DNA of 64,000 nt. It comes from Cinnamomum chago (lineage: Eukaryota > Streptophyta > Magnoliopsida > Laurales > Lauraceae). Positions 2,825-20,610 of the stretch are shown here, in pieces. Both the position numbers and the translations under genes were made by a program. Below the pieces are notes generated by a model. It saw nothing but the letters and a program-made list of their open reading frames with translations. It did no database searches and was not told the origin of the DNA. Positions within the stretch are counted from its first letter, which is position 1, and every line of letters starts with the position of its first letter. The DNA lies in the NCBI GenBank assembly GCA_038049695.1, contig CP142452.1:92697501-92761500 (forward strand), in the 5' to 3' direction.

Positions 2825-3494
2825 TGTGTGGGGTCGTTCTGTGCTCACGGATTTAGGTGAGGCCATCCCCCAGTCTCGCTTTACCATTGGTCTCGGTACC
2901 ACCCAAGGTCGGCCGCAACGCCATCTCGGAAAAACCATGAAGCGAGTCTAGGTGGCTACGTCACGAGTCCCGACATCGGTCAAGGCCTCTGGCCCGATCT
3001 CGGCCCCTGTCACTCAGCCATAAATGCATTGCCGTAACGGGAACGGCGAGCTGACAAGCAGAGTGGGCGCCGGACCTAGATAAGGGGCACGCCTTATCTA
3101 GAGTCATGTCCATAGGCAAGGGATGATGTTCCGATGGGACATTCCCTTTTTACCTACCCCCACTCAGGAGATAAGAGTACACTCTGATAGGACCCTCGTC
3201 CCCTCAAGGGAACAGTCCAATGATGACTTTCACGTCTATATATTGCATGAAGGAAAATCATGTAAGGTACGCAACCCGTCTCCCTCCCAGACCTCTTCTT
3301 CTCCATTCTTTTTCAGTTCCTACACTGACTTGAGCGTCGAAGGGCCTTCGGCTGCCTATAGCCAAGGGCTCTGACCTTTGTCTTTTTCCTTTCAGGTCAT
3401 TGGAGGCTCGATCCTTTCCCCTCATCTTCCCAAGATCTCCAAATCTAGAGCTTAATCCCCTAATAACCAAGTCCGTAATTTTTAGGCACTTACA
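2825..3494 (+). repeat. 5' LTR of the Tat element
   Basis: 670 bp, starting TGTGTGGGGTCG and ending GGCACTTACA. It aligns to the 3' LTR without gaps and with 24 substitutions by my count (18 transitions, 6 transversions), about 3.6% divergence. All six transversions fall in the first 200 bp. A TATA-like TATATATT lies at 3237-3244 in the expected U3 position. Confidence 0.93.
3237..3244 (+). promoter_or_regulatory. LTR TATA box
   Basis: TATATATT follows a CACGTC word and is conserved at the equivalent site in the 3' LTR (13914-13921). It is the likely core promoter for the full-length transcript, with U3 upstream and R-U5 downstream. Called from motif and position only. Confidence 0.5.
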
Positions 3495-5522: not shown

Positions 5523-8500
5523 TGTCGGCAGAGTTGGAAAGCGCTCCAAAAAGAGCCAAGAAGGACAAGCCCAAGATCTGGTTCTCGGACGAAGACCTGA
5601 GAGGGGTCCTGCTCCCCCACAACGACGCCCTCATCCTCACCCTACGGCTCGACAATTATACTACGAAACGCGTCCTCGTAGATCCAGGAAGCTCATTCGA
5701 AATCATCTACTACAGCTGCTTCAAGCAGCTCGGCTTGACCGAGGCCGATCTACAGGAAGCTCATGTCCCTCTGATAGGATTCAGCGCCAAGCCGGTGTAC
5801 CCCAAGGGAAGGATTACGCTGGAAGTCCGGGTAAGAGGAGCCACGAAGATGGCAGACTTCATGGTAGTGGACGCGCTTTCTCCCTACAATGTAATAATGA
5901 GGCGAAGTTGGCTGCATGCCATGGAGGCAGTGCCCTCCACCCTCCATCAAAAACTCAAGTTCCCATTAGAGAGGCCTGGAGGGTTGGTCGAGATAGTAAC
6001 CGTGTGGGGAAATCAACAGATGGCCAGAGAATGCCTCATAGCCGTAACACCTAGAGAGGTGGAACCAAAACAAGTGCATATGGCCGAATTGGAAGCCGAG
6101 ATTGAGGATGCCGGGCGGACGGCGGGGCAGAAAAGTATAGAAGAGCTCACCGAGGTTAGAATCAGTCCCGAGGACCCCGAGCGTTACTTCCTGCTGGGTA
6201 GCCAGCTCCCCGACACTGAGAGGGCCGAACTGCTAGACTTCCTACTTCTGAATAAGGATGTCTTCGCCTGGACTCCATATGAGATGCCCAGGATTGACCC
6301 CGAGGTCATGTGTCACAAGCTGAATGTGTATCCCGGTCATAAGCCCGTTATGCAGAAAGCTCGCAGGACAGGGGTCCCGCAAACAGAAGCAGTGGTCGAA
6401 GAGGTGGAAAAGCTCCTCGAGGCTGGAGCGATCCGCGAAGTACATTATCCCAAGTGGCTAGCCAACACGGTGGTAGTAAAAAAGAAGAATGGCAAATGAA
6501 GGGTCTGCGTGGACTTCACCAACCTCAAAAAAGCCTGCCCCAAGGACAGCTTCCCCCTGCCCAAGATCGACCAAATGATCGATGCCACCTCGGGACATGA
6601 CAGAATGAGCTTCTTAGACTCCTATCGAGGTTACCATCAGATCCCACTGCACAGACCTGATGAGGAAAAAACTGCATTCATAACACCTCGAGGCATCTAC
6701 TGTTACAAGGTGATGCCCTTTTGGGTTGAAAAACGCCGGGGCAACATATCAGAGGCTGGTCACGAAGATGTTTTAGAGCCAGCTCGGGAAGACGATGGAA
6801 GTCTACATTGATGACATGGTGGTCAAATCTAAAAAGTCCCAGGACCATCTGACAGACCTGCGCCAAACATTCGCCGTCCTCAGAAAGTTCCAGCTCAAAC
6901 TGAACGCTTCCAAGTGCGCGTTTGGTGTCGGGTCTGGCAAGTTCCTGGGAAGCCTGGTGACCAGAAGAGGGATTGAGGCCAATCCAGACCAGATCACAGC
7001 TATACAGGCTGTCCAGAGCCCCACTTCGGCCAAGCAAGTCCAACGACTCACAGGGATGGCTGCTGCGCTCAACTGTTTCATCAGTCGAGCACCGGACAAA
7101 TGTCTTCCCTTCTTTCAGCTCCTGAAGAAGAGTTCCAAGTTCCAATGGACCCCTGAATGTGATTTGGCACTGGACAAACTCAAGGAGTACCTCTCTTCAC
7201 CACCGCTATTGTCCACTCTGTCACAAGGGGATCTTTTCTATCTCTACCTCGCAGTCTTGGACCATGCAGTGAGCTCGGTGTTGGTTCGAGAGAACGACAA
7301 GCAGCAACACCCCATCTACTATACCAGCAAGACCCTGCTCGACGTCGAGACCAGGTATCTGCCACTCGAAAAGCTAGTGCTGGCACTCATCAGCGCCTCT
7401 CGCAAGCTCTCCCATTACTTCCAGACATATACGGTGATGGTTGTCACAGAATACCCACTCAAGTCCTTTTTTGAAAGGCGGACTTTTCTGGCCGGATCTC
7501 CAAGTGGGCCGTCGAACTGGGGCAGTTCGATATCCAATATCAACCCAGAACGGCAGTCAAAGCGCAGGTCCTAGCAGACTTCATCATCGAGTTCACTTCT
7601 CCTAGTTCGGCACCGACCTCGCTCGATACTGAACTGGGGGACTCCAAGGGCAATGATAAGGCTGAAATCGAGGCCGAGGAAGACTAGTCCTGGAAAAAAT
7701 TCTTTGAGTCAGCCTGGAAAGTCTTCGTCGACGGTTTTGCGACCTCCAGAAGGGCTGGCGCCGGCGTAGTTCTCCAAACCCCAGAAGGACTGGTCATAGA
7801 GCAAGCACTAACCCTTGATTTCAAAGCGTCAAACAATGAAGCGGAATACGAAGCACTGATCGCGGGTCTTAGCAGCGCAAAGATACTAGGGGCACGTCGA
7901 CTTGTAGTCTTCAGCGACTCCCAATTGGTAACGAACCAGCTGAGCGAAGATTATCAAGCCCGAGACGAAAGAATGGCGGCCTACCTAGCCCACACCAGGC
8001 AGCTCCTTTCCCAGTTCGAGAAAGTTGAAGTCAGGCAGATCGGTAGGGAATCCAATTGCCACGCAGACGCCCTAGCCAACTTGGCCTCGGCCGTAGAGGC
8101 AGGGAAAAGAAGAACGGTCGATGTGGGGACATTGAAAAGACCGAGCATAGAACTCCTTCCAGTTCGGCAAGTCTTGAGCACTGATCTCGGCTCGAGCTGG
8201 ATGGACCCGATCATGACATTCCTAAAAGAGGATAAGCTCCCCGAAGACAGGAATGAAGCTCACAAGGTCAGAATGAAAGCGGCTCATTTTTGACTTTCCC
8301 TAGATGAAAAACTCTATAGAAAATCCTACTCAGGACCATATCTTCAGTGCGTTCACCCAAGCAAGGTAGAAGACTTCCTCTTTGAAATTCACGAAGGAAT
8401 CTGTGGAAGCCACATCGGGGGAAGATCACTGGCATACAGAGCTATTAGCCAGGGCTATTGGTGGCCCTACATGCAGAAAGACGCCCAGCTCTACGCTAGA

Positions 8501-9436
8501 AAGTGTGAAAAATGCCAAAGATTCTCCCACTCCCTGCATCAGCCAGCTCGGGACCTGAGTCCCCTCTCCAGTCCGTGGCCCTTCGCTCAGTGGGGGCTGG
8601 ACATCGTGGGTCCTCTTCACCGCACTCCATGGAACAAAACGTGGTTGATGGTGGGCAGTAATTACTTCACAAAATGGATAGAGGCAGAGGCCTTGTCCTC
8701 CATCACCGAGCACGACACGAAGAATTTTGTGTGGAAAAACATCGTCACAAGGTTCGGGATCCCCAAAGCTCTAGTCTCGGATAACGGGACCCAGTTCGAT
8801 TCAAAACACTTCAGAAACTTCTGCCAGGAGCACGGTATCAGGAACCTTTATGCGACTCCCGCCTACCCACAGAGCAACGGGCAAGCAGAGATCTCAAACA
8901 AGGTGGTGCTGGACGGACTCAAAAAGAGGCTTGATAAAGCTAAGGGCAGATGGGTGGAAGAATTGCCGAGTGTCCTTTGGGCATACAGGACCACCCCGAG
9001 GCGATCTACTTCGGCGACTCCTTTTTCACTGGCCTATGGGATAGAGGCCGTGATCCCTCTCGAGGTCAGCCTCCCGACATTGAGAACAAACCCCTTCGAT
9101 CAAGGGCAGAACGAGATCAACCTTGCCAGAAAGCTCGACCTGGCCGAGGAACGAAGGGAAGCGGCATCCGTGCGTCTGGCCTCCTATCAGCAGCAGCTAT
9201 CCAGAGGATACAATCAGAGGGTAAAAGAGAGGAGATTCTCAGTTGGAGAACTAGTCCTAAAAAGAACACTTCCGGCAGATAGAGATCCTAATGAAGGCAA
9301 ACTCGCGCGGAATTGGCTCGGCCCCATTAAAGTGATCTCGGTCTCTCGGAGGTCGGCCTACAGACTTGAAGGGATGAATGGCAAAGCGTTGCCACGACCA
9401 TGGAATGCTGCGCATCTCAAGAAATATTACTTCTAG
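5519..9436 (+). pseudogene. Broken pol: protease, RT, RNase H, second RNase H, integrase
   Basis: Domains in order: aspartic protease (VDPGSSFEI, about 5668-5697); reverse transcriptase from about 6320 with the YIDD catalytic motif near 6801; Ty3-type RNase H at about 7140-7610 (LYLAVLDHA, TSKTL); a second, archaeal-like RNase H at about 7715-8090 (KVFVDGFA, SNNEAEYEAL, FSDSQLV, HADALANLA); integrase with a zinc motif (HEGICGSHIGG, CEKC) and D-D-E core (GLDIVGP, SDNGTQF, NGQAEI) ending at 9436. Breaks: TGA 6497, a +1 shift at 6719-6725 (TTTTGGG), TAG 6774, a shift near the T6 at 7467-7472, TAG 7685 and TGA 8291. Several stops fit TGG-to-TGA/TAG or CAG-to-TAG transitions. The integrase-containing stretch 8471-9436 is intact. 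There is no chromodomain. Confidence 0.92.
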
Positions 9437-9511: not shown

Positions 9512-9919
9512 AAGGCTCCGGCTCTCACGCCAGCCTCTTTGAGTTCGGTCAGAGGACCAACTCCCAAAGGCTCCGGCCCTCGCGCCAGCCTCTTTGGGCT
9601 CGGTCATAGGACCAAAGGCTCCGGCTCTCACGCCAGCCTCTTTGAGTTCGGTCAGAGGACCAACTCCCAAAGGCTCTGGCTCTCACGCCAACCTCTTTGA
9701 GTTCGGTCAGAGGACCAACTCTCAAAGGCTCCGGCCCTCGCGCCAGCCTCTTTAAGTTCGGTCAGAGGACCAACTCTCAAAGGCTCCGGCCCTCGCGCCA
9801 GCCTCTTTGGGTTCGGTCAAACGACCAAAGGCTCCAGCCCTCGCGCCAGCCTCTTTGAGTTCGGTCAGAGGGCCAACTCCCCAAGGCTCCGGCTCCCGCG
9901 CTAGCCTCCTTGAAACAGG
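9512..9919 (+). repeat. 3' UTR tandem repeat of the Tat element, about 8 units
   Basis: Eight head-to-tail units with the core AAGGCTCCGGCTCTCACGCC, then AGCCTCTTTGAGTTCGGTCA. Unit starts are near 9512, 9567, 9612, 9669, 9724, 9779, 9826 and 9882. Full units are 54-57 bp; short units of about 45-48 bp lack the AACTCCC end. The array begins 75 bp after the integrase stop. Tat-lineage elements are known for hypervariable tandem repeats at this point, and these can seed satellite DNA. From 9920 to 10480 I see only non-coding 3' UTR. Confidence 0.88.
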
Positions 9920-10481: not shown

Positions 10482-12997
10482 CTATTGCTTCTCGGGCGCC
10501 GCATCCTTATTCGACTCTGGAGGATCGGACGAGGCAGGAGCGTCAGATGGAGGAGCCGTAAGGGGAACCTGGGCAGTCTCGACCTCGGCGGGGGTCGGAG
10601 GCGGAGGAGGTACGCCTGGGACTTCGGTAGGGGCCTCAGGAGGATTGGAGCCAGGCTCTGACTCTGAGCTCGGTACTGCAGGTTGGAATTGGGGAAGGTT
10701 CGCGAATATGAGGTCGTCCTCAGCAACCCCGTACTTGCGAAGGGCCTCCTTGCACCCCATCTCAAACAGCACCGGGCACAGATCCGTGATTTGAGCTACG
10801 TACTCCTCCGACGCCCAGTCCACCCCATCTTGGTAAGCTTTTGCAACTTGGGCTCGCAGGGTGGACTAGACATTGGCCCTCTCTTTTCTGGAAGTCTCGA
10901 GCTCGGCCTCCTTCCCAGCCAATTCGTTTTGCTTATGGGCAAGCTCGGCGTCCCTCTTGGCAAGATCGGCCCCCTTCTGGGCAAGCTCGGCCTCCAGTTG
11001 GACCGCCCTCCTTGCCTTGTCATCAACGGCGCCCCTCAAATTTTTATTCTCGCCCCGCAACTTAATGATCTCGGTCTTCGCCGCCTGTTGTTCCGTTGCG
11101 TATTGGGCGAGCTTCTCCTCCGACTTCTTTATTTCCACCGCGCTCGCCTCCAGCGCAGCCCCCATCTTCTTCTTCTCCTTCTCCATCTCGACGATCTGGG
11201 CAGTTGTTTCTACCCGCCTCTCCATCACTACTTGAAGCCTCTGTACATTCTGCAAAAAGATAAAAATAGTAAGGGAATCAAATCAGGCAACCAAGAGGCA
11301 GAAATTCGAAAGCAGAAGGGCGGAAGTTACCTCAAGCGACGCCCTCATCGTCTGATGGAGCAGGCCCATCGTCCCGGCCCTTTTATGCCTCTCCATGTCC
11401 ATGGGGAGGGCACATTCCCGAGCAAGAGCCACGACCGACTCCCAGCTGTTCCCCAGCCGCTCCCCCATGGTCATGGGCTCGTTAGGGTTGAGGTCGGCGT
11501 AGAAAGTCGGGCCTGCAGCTCCGCTTCCGGGAGTCTCTCCTCCTCGCCCCCTACACGAGGCCTCTTCTCGGGAGGGCCCCCCTCGCCCTCTACACGAGGC
11601 CTCTTCTCGGGAGGGGCCCCATCGCCCTCCTTTACGGCTCCCGCGGTTCTGGCCCCGGCATCCTTTGGTGGCGGAGGCGGCGGAGCCTCCTTCTCAGCCT
11701 CCACCACCAGCGGCCTGCTGTCCTTAAGCAGGCGAGGCTCCTTAGGCAGCCGGATGTCCTTGGGGGGCTCCACTGACCTTCCCTTCTTGGCTTTGGCGGA
11801 GGATGCCCCTTCTGCTCCCAATGAGCCGAAGGAGGCGCCAGCTGCGGTGCCTAACCCACTGGGGGCACGCTTGGCAGGGGGGAGCTCGGCCCCCGAAAAT
11901 CATAGCCCCCAGATTCTTCAAGGGAGGGCGTTGTCCGTCCATCTCCTCCTCTTCTTGACCTCGGGAGGAAGGGGGGCTGTCGGTGATAATAATCGGGCCT
12001 TGGGGCTCCGTGGTTTGGCCGCTGGTCTCGGCAAGCGCGAGTACGATCTCCCCTACTGGCTCAAGGGGGACCTTGGCAGTCTTACTGGTATAAGACCGGT
12101 ACCGTGGCTTGTACCCAAGCAATGAGAAGGCAGCTCGATCGTGGTGACCGTGGTATTGATAGATCTTCTCAAACCACGCGTCTTTCCTCTTCCACTTGTC
12201 GAAGCTGACGTCCCTCCTCCTTCGCTGAACGCCTGCACAGAAGACAGAGGGAATCAACTCGGCGTGATAGCGAATAAAAACAATGAAAATGAAACCCGAT
12301 AGGACAGGTGTTTACTGGGAGGGGTCCTAGGTTTCCGCGGAACCCGGATTCTCCGCTCCTCTTCGGTCTCGGTCCCCTTGAACTCCCAGTTCCCCGAGAC
12401 CAATATCCGTTCGTCTCTTGCATATTTGCTCGAGTCTTCCAGGGCGTTCACCAAGGGCCGATGCCTAGCCTTCACGCGGAGGTAATAGGAGTCGTCGCCC
12501 CCCGCAACTTTGCAGATGTCGTAGACATCTTCTATGTCATGCACCCCGAGATTGATGTCAAGAATCCAATTTAGCTCCGCCACGCCCATTATAATCTTAA
12601 AACCGTTTGGCATCAGCTGGAAGGGGCAAATTCGCCACACATCGAGGCAAGACCGGAGGAGCGGGTGAATGGGAAACCTAACCCCCCCTTAGCGCATCGA
12701 CACCAATGGAAAGGGCATCAAGTTCTTGTACATAGTAAGGCTATCAGGAAGGCCCCCGAGGTCGTCGGGCTTCATAAGGACGTCAGCCGGGATCTTAAAC
12801 GACAACCTAAAAGCCTCTAGGGCTGCAAGACCCTCTAACCAGTGGCTGAAGATTCCCATTTTCTTAAAGCTAAAGGGGGCAGAGAACAAGTAAAAAGAGG
12901 CGAGAAATGGAAAAACCCTAAGGGGCCAAAAACCCTCTGAAAGCGAAGAGAAGAAAGGAGGCACAAAGAAATAGCAGAGAGAGAAGATAGAACTCAC
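10482..12997 (-). pseudogene. Antisense spliced gene inside the Tat element
   Basis: A minus-strand gene between pol and the 3' LTR. Three exons can be read: about 12997-12316, 12232-11331 and 11249-10482. The introns are 12315-12233 (donor GTAAAC, acceptor CTGTGCAG) and 11330-11250 (donor GAG|GTAAC, acceptor TTTTTGCAG); both joins keep frame. The N-terminal exon has an MGIFSHWLEGLAALEAFRLS stretch and a HPLLRSCLDVWRICPFQLMP region like the putative gypsy-type transposon family (PF04195-like, from memory). The middle part is Pro/Arg/Lys-rich with a duplicated PPEKRPRV. The last exon is a long heptad-like coiled coil (about 11249-10880) and an acidic Pro-rich tail. Breaks: TAA at 12689-12691, TAG at 10866-10868, and compensating shifts at two G5 runs (11890-11894, 11547-11551). 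The start is uncertain. Function is unknown; such antisense ORFs are described in Tat elements. Confidence 0.78.
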
Positions 12998-13170
12998 AGA
13001 AAGGATGCTGGAAGATTACTGAGGACGAAGAAGCAGAAAGCTAGAAAGAAAAGTTCCCGAGATCAGTTGGTTCGTTTTTCAGCAAAATCTGTGGCAGGAC
13101 TTCGTCTTCAACAGAGCTCTCCTTCTCAGACAAACAGCTAGGGTAAAAGAGAAAGGGAAAAGGGCGCTTC

Positions 13171-13180
13171 CATTTTTATA
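13171..13180 (-). promoter_or_regulatory. TATA box for the antisense gene
   Basis: On the minus strand the sequence reads TATAAAAATG within CCTCTATAAAAATGGAAG, about 175 bp upstream of the first antisense ATG (12997). Position and match to the plant TATA consensus suggest an internal antisense promoter close to the 3' LTR. Inferred from motif only. Confidence 0.5.
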
Positions 13181-13487
13181 GAGGGACGCCCCTCTTGATT
13201 ACCCTGCCACGCATCGCTTCGATCCCGGCGACGGGCCAGACAGAAGACTCCACGTGGCGGCAACGGTCCGTCTCCCACCACGCCTCTGGTACGACATTTA
13301 TCACTTCGGGCATAGGAACGGCGTCCCACGTGCTCGACAGGGCAAAGCAATTATGGTGCCCTATTTATTGCCTAGGGCAAACGAAGGGGCATCATGATGA
13401 GAATCTCATAAAAGCAAGATACGAAAAGACGGTCCCATCACTTCCGAATCTTATCTCCCGACCTCGGAGAAGGCCAAAGAGGTCGAG

Positions 13488-13501
13488 AGCTAGGGGGCAA
13501 T
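13488..13501 (+). other. Polypurine tract of the Tat element
   Basis: AGCTAGGGGGCAAT lies directly before the 3' LTR (13502). The AGGGGG core is the likely plus-strand primer. Confidence 0.6.
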
Positions 13502-14171
13502 TGTGTGGGGTCGTTCTGTGCTCACGGATTTAGGTGAGGCCATCCCCAAGTCTCGGTTTACCATTGGTCTCGGTACCACCCAAGGTCGGCCACAACGCCA
13601 TCTCGAAAAAACCATGAAGCGAGTCTCGGTGGCTACGTCACGAGTCCGGACCTCGGTCAAGGCCTCTGGCCCGATCTCGGCCCCTGTCACTGAGCCATAA
13701 ATGCACTGCCGTAACGAGAACGGCGAGCTGACAAGCGGAGTGGGCGCCGGACCTAGATAAAGGGCATGCCTTATTTAGAGTCATGTCCGTAGGCAAGGGA
13801 TGATGTTCTGATAGGACATTCCCTTTTTACCTACCCCCACTCAGGAGATAAGAGTACACTCTGATAGGACCCCCGTCCCCTCAAGGGAACAGTCCAATGA
13901 TGACTTTCACGTCTATATATTGCATGAAGGAAAACCATGTAAGGTATGCAACCCGTCTCCCTCCCAGACCTCTTCTTCTCCATTCTCTTTCAGTTCCTAC
14001 ACTGACTTGAGCGTCGGAGGGCCTTCGGCTGCCTATAGCCAGGGGCTCTGACCTTTGTCTTTTTCCTTTCAGGTCATTGGAGGCTCGATCCTTTCCCCTC
14101 ATCTTCCCAAGATCTCCAAATCTAGAGCTTAATCCTCTAATAACCAAGTCCGTAATTTTTAGGCACTTACA
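13502..14171 (+). repeat. 3' LTR of the Tat element
   Basis: 670 bp, gap-free alignment to 2825-3494. It ends TTACA and is followed by CGTGA, which nearly matches the CGTGG before the 5' LTR. Confidence 0.93.
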
Positions 14172-17778: not shown

Positions 17779-19672
17779 CTATGTGGAAACAGCCATACCA
17801 GTTAAGAAGATATCCTCCTCCTCCTTGCAGGTCGGTTTCGGTGAATGGGATGCTATAATTGCAGGTTTATCTATTTCCTCATCACACAAGATCTCTTGTG
17901 CGCGGCAACTGCTACTGCAGAATGCTTTTTCACCTCTGTTAAGGAATACAAGACATCAAGACAGTATATTTGTTAAACAATAAGTAAGAACTCAATATCT
18001 AGATCAAATTTCATTCCAGCGTCCGAGGGAATGAGAAGAAAAGAACAGCCACCCAAGCATACACCAGAGAAATGAACCAAGAATCAATCAGTTACTCGAA
18101 ATTTATCAATACAAACAATGACAGAAGCTATGGGCGATTCTGTTTTCACACAAAATAATTGCCCATCCAAGTTAGGTTGGATGCTGTTTATCCTCCAGTC
18201 CGTCCCAATCAAATTGCTAATCAGAAGCTATCATTATTTGGGGCATAAACGAGAGGAACAATGCTCTACTTAGTAAAGCCGCTTCCAATCCCACCACCAC
18301 CCAAACTGCATTGAAGAACAGATGAACAATGGATTCTGTAAAATATTCAAACCATCTGTATTTTTACCAAACATTTGAATCAACCAAGAGCATTTCCAAG
18401 ATGAAAAATAGAGTTTTTATATATGATTCCCAAAGGAAGAGAACCCAATTGAATCAGTTCTGAGCACATTATCAGAACATCATGGATAAAGAGTTCATAA
18501 AACTGGGGGCATTGCATCATATCATCAGTTATCAACCCAAGGAAAATAAAGGACAAGATCTAAAACTCCACAAACCTGTACATGTAGATATCTTTCCCTT
18601 CTTCCAGTTTCTTCTTGCAAGAGCAGCAGAAGCTCAAAAAATCATCCGGGGGATAGTAATTGTCCGCGCCCTTAACCAGTGCTTGAGATTCAATTCCCCA
18701 TTCTTTCTTATTACAATCAGCCAACTCAAACGTATGGCTCTCTAAAACACAATTACCATAAATATGAGTAGTTCTAGGATTTGGACCATGAGAAATGACA
18801 CAGGTATAGTCCTCAGAGAGTTCTATTTCACTAGCAGAAAGAGACCCAATAAATCTCTGCCCAGAGGCAATAGATTTTAGGGGTGGACTTGATTTCAAGT
18901 CAGAAAAATTTTCAAAATTGGGGCAGTCAAGAGCAAATGGAAGAGAACCGGAATCCTGTTGGGTGTTTTTAGAATCTGACCAAAATTCCTCTGATTTGGA
19001 CATTGGATTAGAGTGCATCAGCCCCGAAAGGTGGGACGATGATCTTTCCGAATAAGATAAACATGATCGGATTTTCTCAACAACCTCGCTCTTTAAATTC
19101 ATTTCATTGGATTCAAATACAATGTCTGAGTTACCCAATTGGAGGTTGGGAGATTTTAGCGGAGAAATTGCATAGTTCTTAGGCAGTGATCTGGGAGTTA
19201 GAGAAGAATCAAGTGAATTAATCAGACGTGTCTGGCAAGTTGGGATGTTGATCCTCATCTGAGAACCAAGCACTATATTGCGACCCTCAGAAAACCCAAA
19301 AATCTTTCCATTTGGTTTGGTCTCATTGTTGAGAGAATCAATAATGCCAAGGCCTACTTTTATGTTGTTGGTGGTGGAATCCCAGCTCTTTTGGGGCTGC
19401 CCCTCAAGCCCTGATCTTGGTGACCTCAGCAAAGGGCTTAGATTGGAGAAAACCTTATGATCAAGAGGAGAAGTAGGGCTCCTGGCAGATTCATAGTCTG
19501 ATAAACCCTTGGCAGTAAATCCTACAAAAAGCCCAGGGACACTGAAAAATGAACTGCTTCTGGCCTTCTGTGCCAAAACATCAGATGAAAAATAGGAATC
19601 TGGGGGAGAGTCAGGCATCAGATGCCCCTGGCTCTGATCTTTTTGAACTGGTCTACTCCTCTTCCTTAGCAT
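17779..19672 (-). CDS. FCS-like zinc finger (FLZ/DUF581) protein
   Basis: FLZ proteins are plant-specific adaptors that bind the SnRK1 kinase complex through a short zinc finger. Two coding exons are read on the minus strand: 19672-18576 and 17935-17779, joined across a 640-bp intron (donor TACAG|GTTTGT, acceptor TTAACAG) that splits the arginine codon inside the finger. The protein is 417 residues. It starts MLRKRSRPVQKDQ, has the conserved N-terminal SSSFFSVPGLFVGF and RSPTSPLD motifs, a Ser-rich middle, and the FLZ domain at about residues 343-383 (CCSC, then DIYMYR, GEKAFCSSSCR) with all four zinc cysteines present. The start at 19672 is preferred to the upstream ATG at 19840 because the extra 56 residues are hydrophobic, unlike the family, and a TTTTTTTCAG acceptor lies 18 bp before it. 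Motifs fit the larger FLZ clade (Arabidopsis FLZ8/10/11 type); the exact orthologue is not certain. Confidence 0.9.
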
Positions 19673-20610
19673 TCTAAAACTCCTCAGCCTCTGAAAAAAA
19701 CCAGAAATTTCCTGCACGATGATCAGCAGGAATGAGAAAGAGTAAGCAGATTCAGAGAACCCAATGAGAAAACAGGAAAAGTAACATGCAGAGAGAAAGA
19801 GCAAAAGAAACAGGAAGGAGAATGGATGGTTCAGATTCAAAACACATGAAAATGAAAGGAATGATTGCAGATCCTCAAACCCAAATCAGAATCCACCATG
19901 GATTGATGAGAATCAACAAAGCATGCATTAATGATTAGCATGCATTCATGGTGACAAGAAAAGGAAATCAAACACAGATGAAAATTTCTACAATGAACAT
20001 CAAAACTAAAAACCAAACACAGACTAAAATCATCTAAATCATCCAAACCTCAAAAAAAAAAAAAAAAAAAAAAAAAGACAGCCAGATTAAAAAGATACTT
20101 CCATCAATGTCCAATAAACCAATCCTCTCAAATCTCCCAACCCCAATACAAGACTATAGGATAAAGAAACCCCAGATTAGAAAATTCAAAAATACCCAAT
20201 TTCAGCCATGGATGGACACAAAAAATAATAATGTAGCAAGCAGCAACAAACTCAACAACCCATGAGAAAACTACATACATGGATAAAAAATAAAAAAAAA
20301 ATAAAAAAGCTCTCAAATCAAGAGCACCATCCAATCCAAGAACCTGAAGATTCACCACAAGAACAATGACTGATCAAGATCTTTTCAGGCCAAAATCCAG
20401 AGACCCCAGATGAATGCATCCCTCAGTACAGGGCATGAGATCACTGAAACAGGACTGAGAACAGAGACTCCTGTAAAAGATGGGAAAACCCACCTGGTTT
20501 CTTCCTCTGAAAATCCCTCAGACGAGGCCAAGGAGCCCCCAAATGCGGTAAAAATATATATGATAAAACTTGGTCAGTACTCTTTCTCAGGCTCTCTCTC
20601 TCTCTCTCTC
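19673..20610 (-). promoter_or_regulatory. 5' UTR intron and promoter region of the FLZ gene
   Basis: A consistent 5' UTR intron would run from a CAG|GTTCTTGG donor (20343) to a TTTTTTTCAG acceptor (19691). Upstream on the minus strand there is a CATATATATTTT TATA-like word (about 20553-20563) and a GA-repeat (20588-20611). Leader introns are common in FLZ genes. Both sites are predictions from motif alone. Confidence 0.45.

Follow-up and report, generated by a model that had tools for sequence, protein, structure and literature searches.

Known antisense genes of retroelements

Antisense open reading frames (ORFs) with a TRP28 domain, which is predicted to bind DNA, are known from Grande, RIRE2 and Retand, and have been reported in 97% of the recently active Retand clusters (Vicient 2025, PMC11963269). 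In maize Grande, the interval from pol to the 3' LTR likewise holds an antisense gene, gene23, for which a promoter of its own and a product located in the nucleus are described (Gomez-Orte 2013, as cited in PMC7264820 and PMC11963269). A spliced antisense transcript of a retroelement is known from the HTLV-type deltaretroviruses (PMC8622228), which offer an analogy in the way of working, and no sequence homology is claimed. Furthermore, a mobile group I intron of Didymium carries an antisense homing endonuclease gene that keeps a spliceosomal intron, which is removed in vivo (PMC9548176); however, that system is another class of element and does not involve retro-copying through an LTR cycle.

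Here we describe an antisense gene in a stretch of 64,000 nt (the window) of the genome of Cinnamomum chago (GCA_038049695.1, CP142452.1, positions 92,697,501-92,761,500 of the forward strand). Like the antisense TRP28 (PF04195) ORFs of Retand (PMC11963269), it is antisense, lies between pol and the 3' LTR, shows a TRP28-like domain and belongs to an element with a tandem array and with sizes in the Retand range; the Retand elements of Vicient 2025 also carry further antisense ORFs with Smc/TolA-like matches, which is an additional likeness. They differ in that the Retand sequences were reported as ORFs, whereas those described here would be joined as the exons of a single gene that has two or three introns. 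The word "intron" is absent from the text of Vicient 2025 (PMC11963269), where "splic" and "exon" are found in the reference list only, and "intron" appears 0 times in the text of the review by Vicient and Casacuberta 2020 (PMC7264820), which calls for a search of antisense and spliced transcripts. The literature searched gave no description of a multi-exon structure for this gene, and an earlier one in Steinbauerova 2011, Gomez-Orte 2013 or Kejnovsky 2006 is possible.

From the sequence comparisons given below, we consider it probable (about 85%) that an LTR retrotransposon of the Tat/Retand type carries here its antisense TRP28 accessory gene, organized as one spliced gene and not as separate ORFs. 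The comparison of genomic copies demonstrates retention of the introns and constraint on the encoded protein, and we infer that the antisense gene is transcribed and spliced.

The retrotransposon in the window

The element is delimited by a direct repeat of 670 bp, with the 5' LTR at 2825-3494 and the 3' LTR at 13502-14171 of the plus strand. The two LTRs show 24 mismatches and no gaps (K2P 0.037), and they are bordered by CGTGG and CGTGA, which by eye probably represent a target-site duplication that has changed at one base. The pol part (6795-9436, plus strand) contains the end of the reverse transcriptase (RT), RNase H and integrase, which were identified through Pfam only, with matches to RVT_1, RT_RNaseH_2, RVT_3 and rve above the cut-offs. 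Between pol and the antisense gene, Tandem Repeats Finder detected an array of 7.6 copies of a 55-bp unit (9512-9913, no strand assigned). According to the coordinates, the internal region has about 10,007 bp and the region between pol and the 3' LTR about 4,065 bp; these two sizes and that of the LTR all fall within the ranges reported for Retand, which are 7,380-12,869 bp, 2,933-6,566 bp and 315-1194 bp, respectively (Vicient 2025, PMC11963269). The antisense TRP28 ORF between pol and the 3' LTR, a feature of the Retand lineage, is present here as a homology that runs through a second family of the same genome, described below. About 4.4 kb past the 3' LTR, the minus strand of the window contains an ORF of host type that encodes an FLZ zinc finger (18560-19840; PF04570, 37.2 bits).

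Structure of the antisense gene

The minus strand of positions 10482-13180 was read, and the exon regions were translated in all frames. The gene lies on the minus strand between the integrase and the 3' LTR, and three coding exons can be proposed, all read on that strand. Exon 1 (12316-12859, with the ATG at 12859) encodes the TRP28 or Transposase_28-like part and is followed by intron 1 (12233-12315), a GT-AG intron of 83 bp in phase 1, which interrupts a codon behind the first of its three bases. Exon 2 (11331-12232) encodes a basic start, an acidic and proline-rich middle and a conserved block just before intron 2 (11250-11330), which has 81 bp, is also GT-AG and, being in phase 0, sits between codons. 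Exon 3 (10482-11249, with the stop codon at 10484-10482) encodes a coiled coil and a conserved C-terminal block. Both introns are rich in T (41 and 47% in introns 1 and 2, respectively) and, with 43 and 41% GC, poorer in GC than exons 1 to 3 (54, 63, and 58%).

This structure agrees with the sequence-only reading, which had proposed two minus-strand GT-AG introns of 83 and 81 bp joining three exons in frame. The introns are located at 12315-12233 and 11330-11250, the junction pairs that it gave, 12316/12232 and 11331/11249, correctly name the exon bases that flank each intron, and the reading frame is preserved across both junctions. The coiled-coil C-terminal exon that it described was supported in part: exon 3 is coiled-coil-like, but its matches to Pfam coiled-coil families are weak and below the cut-offs. 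Contrary to that description, the gene is not open in the window copy. In-frame stops interrupt exon 1 (12691-12689) and exon 3 (10868-10866), and the frame of exon 2 shifts twice, close to 11880 and to 11500; on account of these lesions the copy is considered decayed. Both in-frame stops are private to the window and are present in 0/32 other aligned copies. An AATAAA found behind the stop codon in the window copy was rejected as a conserved signal, since 8/32 other copies have it.

Conservation of the proposed splice sites among copies

Copies were searched in the genome of the window itself (1.06 Gb, 14 contigs). The DNA search with the antisense gene listed 41 matches, with 40 of 2,028 candidates scored; 33 places were fetched, one of which was the window, and the other 32 copies were aligned to it. 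A GT-AG pair alone is uninformative, because 469 pairs of this kind, separated by 60-120 nt, exist on the minus strand of 12859-10482. Among the 32 copies, however, intron 1 keeps its GT in 30 and its AG in 31, with lengths of 75-98 bp, and intron 2 keeps both dinucleotides in 32/32. If the leader intron described below is included, each of the six proposed splice dinucleotides is present in 29 or more of the 32 copies, a level reached by 27 of the 80 other noncoding GT or AG dinucleotides; taken alone, this contrast is moderate evidence for splice sites. A stretch with the sequence CCGAGYTGA is also conserved in intron 1, and is presumably its branch point.

A protein search with exon 1 listed at least 150 places, among 3,697 candidates. 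Of the 30 loci taken from it, eight had already been obtained with the DNA search, which left 22 new ones for alignment. They show the GT and AG of intron 1 in 21/22 and 20/22 copies, and those of intron 2 in 18/22 and 17/22 copies, respectively; in at least two of the intron 2 failures (L045 and L051), the gene match ends before this intron. Furthermore, the gene is linked to its element: the match extends at least 200 bp into the LTR in 29/32 copies, and the integrase adjoins the antisense gene in 8/8 loci checked, one of which is the window copy.

Retention of the introns

No intronless copy was found, intron 1 being absent in 0/58 copies examined (32, 22 and four more chosen for their long open frames, which all have intron 1 with GT and AG). 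Very long open frames had been considered as candidate intron losses and were rejected as such for the four fetched copies, which keep both dinucleotides and whose intron 1 is readable by chance. A 120-base probe of the spliced junction gave 71 matches, with 40 of 665 candidates scored, a number with which rare spliced retrocopies could be missed; 0/71 matches span the junction and all lie in one of its halves.

The element would replicate through its sense RNA, in which antisense introns are carried as reverse complements and cannot be spliced, and every new copy would therefore inherit them. The lack of copies with lost introns is consistent with this mechanism, and is also expected if the antisense RNA is never reverse-transcribed for other reasons. 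The sequence-only reading had suggested that an antisense gene with introns moves along with a Tat-type retrotransposon without losing them. This is supported by the conserved copies, their linkage to LTR and integrase, the occurrence of the gene in a second family and the finding of none without introns among the copies examined. The locus would provide a clean natural case of introns that survive repeated reverse transcription through antisense orientation.

A second family with the antisense gene in the same genome

The search of the same genome with PF04195 listed at least 150 places, from 2,100 candidates, and all those listed were above the cut-off, with 37-47 bits; in 14 control genomes, it gave one match, below the cut-off. 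Five places were fetched for the second family, and a copy of it scores 38.4 bits with PF04195. Exon 1 of the window's family gave 16.8 bits (window piece) and 17.3 bits (first copy scanned) and did not reach the gathering cut-off of 26.2, and matches at E up to 0.1 were obtained in 21/24 copies scanned, with a best E of 0.00021. Exon 1 is labelled TRP28-like because it stays under the Pfam cut-off and is linked to the domain through the second family.

The second family shows three GT-AG introns. Intron A follows the TRP28 exon (58-75 bp, phase 1), intron B interrupts the gene about halfway (69-80 bp, phase 1), and intron C stands directly before the coiled coil (75-86 bp, phase 0). The donor GT is present in 5/5 copies for each intron, and the acceptor AG in 5/5, 5/5, and 4/5 copies for A, B, and C, respectively. 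These copies are decayed, with the first exon open in 3/5 and the exon before intron C open in 3/5. Behind the gene and in opposite orientation, RT, RNase H and integrase were found in the two places that were read further, with identities to the window element of 53-55% for the main pieces of RT, 52-53% for integrase and 34-37% for RNase H. One copy, L080, has a single open frame of 702 residues through all three introns, and therefore an unspliced form could be translated there.

Profiles of the two families were compared with hhalign using three of the five second-family copies per exon, which makes the profiles shallow (Neff about 1.3). Exon 1 of both families aligned along 141 columns with 28% identity (E 3.6e-6, probability 87.5%), and the alignment stops five residues short of the exon end in one family and seven in the other. 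As it runs near both exon ends, intron 1 and intron A are considered to lie at a matching place, with equal phase. Exons 2 and 3 showed no significant homology with the second family (E 0.62, and E 0.0069 at a probability of 5.6%), therefore intron 2 and intron C match in phase and position only. No counterpart of intron B was seen in the window's family.

We also entertain a broader reading, although with somewhat less than even confidence: antisense orientation may durably shelter the spliceosomal introns of LTR retrotransposons, and the Retand TRP28 "ORFs" of flowering plants may be one ancestral multi-intron gene, whose antisense mRNA needs for its expression introns that the sense RNA cannot lose. 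The introns retained in such an ancestral gene would include the leader intron near the promoter, and intron position would offer a way to date the capture of the gene.

Selection on the reading frame and alternative explanations

Variable sites, defined as those with at least two bases each present in at least three of the 33 sequences, amount to 17.7% of the first, 18.2% of the second and 44.3% of the third codon positions. On internal branches, transitions per site are 0.186, 0.191, and 0.667 at these positions, respectively, and 0.712 in the introns, while terminal branches, which include the decay after insertion, show a weaker codon contrast in transitions (internal vs terminal, p = 1.7e-11). 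Transversions are less telling: they do not differ between internal and terminal branches (p = 0.94), and their internal values per site are 0.115, 0.064, and 0.147 at codon positions 1, 2, and 3 and 0.067 in the introns, which here do not exceed position 2. Among the 33 sequences, exon 1 has a median dN/dS of 0.14 and exon 3 one of 0.31; for exon 2, whose middle was skipped because of the frameshifts of the window copy, the first part gives 0.18 and the last part 0.28. Of 13 exon indels common to three or more copies, 10 have a length divisible by three, in relation to 5/56 in introns, UTR, flanks and LTR; the other three fall on or close to the lesions that the window copy itself has in exon 2. 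Judged by these patterns, the antisense gene is under purifying selection in the 32 other copies. The sequence-only reading had made its gene depend on a conserved protein in related copies and had pointed to Ka/Ks among them; such a protein was found, with median dN/dS of 0.14-0.31 across the measured exon parts.

Silent divergence declines along the gene, with a median dS of 0.58 in exon 1, 0.41 and 0.27 in the two parts of exon 2 and 0.24 in exon 3, which could come from recombination between subfamilies or from constraint on the sense strand. Intron 1 also varies more than intron 2 in copies L010-L041.

The antisense unit could alternatively work as RNA, forming with the genomic RNA a dsRNA that tunes silencing while the protein is secondary, and a silencing role of antisense transcripts has been raised as a possibility (Vicient and Casacuberta 2020, PMC7264820). 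However, selection of this strength at the amino-acid level (dN/dS 0.14-0.31), together with indels that keep the frame, points to a protein function, and we regard a primary RNA role as improbable, although both functions could coexist. A comparably low probability is given to a relic, that is, a gene captured once, selected only in the past and without function in the present copies. Most copies do carry lesions, with all three exons open in 3/32 copies and no intact three-exon set in 29/32; nevertheless, codon constraint is strong in the transitions on internal branches, gene and introns recur in the second family, and every old insertion decays in this way on its terminal branch.

Slightly less probable again are separate antisense ORFs, in which TRP28, middle part and coiled coil would be translated from different unspliced transcripts and the gaps between them would be mere spacers. 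This would fit the 104 antisense ORFs given for 63 clusters, with introns unmentioned, in Vicient 2025 (PMC11963269), as well as the copies in which an intron can be read through: intron 1 is readable and a multiple of three in 1/33 sequences, and also in L046 and L072-L075, in which an unspliced form could therefore be translated, and intron 2 is readable in 10/33. However, all four splice dinucleotides of the coding introns are conserved, and the second family has an intron of the same phase at a matching place. Furthermore, the length of intron 1 modulo 3 is 2, 1, and 0 in 14, 13, and six of the 33 sequences, respectively, so that a common frame of exons 1 and 2 requires removal of the intron in the 27/33 sequences whose intron 1 length is not a multiple of three. 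Finally, it is very unlikely that the coding signal belongs to the sense strand and that the antisense frame is its shadow, because the plus-strand ORF of 480 aa at 10683-12125, although long in the window, is open at full length in only 1/33 sequences, the window, and was rejected as a real gene, and because the substitution periodicity tracks the antisense exon frames.

The predicted product

Under the reading as one spliced gene, splicing would link the TRP28 exon (181 residues), the basic, low-complexity exon (about 312 residues) and the coiled-coil exon (255 residues) into a predicted protein of about 750 residues. At the basic beginning of exon 2, most of 14 copies read QKRRRE, and the tail encoded by exon 3, after the coiled coil and the conserved block, is proline-rich. 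AlphaFold modeled the stop-free part of exon 1 alone with a pLDDT of 47.6. Among solved structures no relative of exon 1 was found, with one match at E 0.45, and no relative was confirmed in the viral contigs searched. The domain make-up, gene23 of Grande and the HTLV-type antisense genes suggest, tentatively, that the product may be a regulator of the element that acts in the nucleus, associates with itself and binds DNA, a role which we hold to be the most likely one, although with somewhat less than even confidence. If the locus is one spliced gene, the protein predictions, domain counts and promoter studies of the Retand group need to be redone, and the full-length product becomes testable.

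Putative promoter region and likely leader intron

A TATA box is found on the minus strand at 13175-13181, and the motif TATA[A/T]A is kept in 28/32 copies. The sequence-only reading had placed it about 175 bp upstream; the box is present and conserved, but it stands about 320 nt from the ATG at 12859. Upstream of it, on the same strand, a CACGTG at 13249-13258, which we take to be a G-box, is kept in 25/32 copies.

The 10-mer TCTGTGAGTT at 13000-12991 has a conservation of 0.994 and ranks first in 13501-12861, although the 5' UTR otherwise evolves fast, with a mean column conservation of 0.81; L041, which does not align there, was left out. This proposed donor, TCT/GTGAGTT, is the most conserved 10-mer among about 640 upstream bases. 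The 5' UTR likely holds a third, leader intron, missed by the first reading, at 12937-12997 of the minus strand (61 bp) or with an alternative 3' end at 12918 (80 bp). The donor GTGAGT is kept in 30/32 copies, the AG at 12938-12937 in 29/31 and the AG at 12919-12918 in 28/31, and the 22 further copies show GTGAGT in 22/22, with the 12937 acceptor absent in 6/22.

According to this arrangement, the gene would have its own promoter (TATA near 13181, G-box upstream), just inside the 3' LTR and reading against gag-pol, and its primary transcript would contain the likely leader intron and the two coding introns. The TATA box is placed about 320 bp inside the LTR border, whereas the HTLV antisense promoter is located within the 3' LTR (PMC7264820). 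A purine-rich stretch at 13487-13501 adjoins the 3' LTR. It overlaps with the antisense promoter region at the latter's upstream end and ranks among the most conserved 10-mers of that region.
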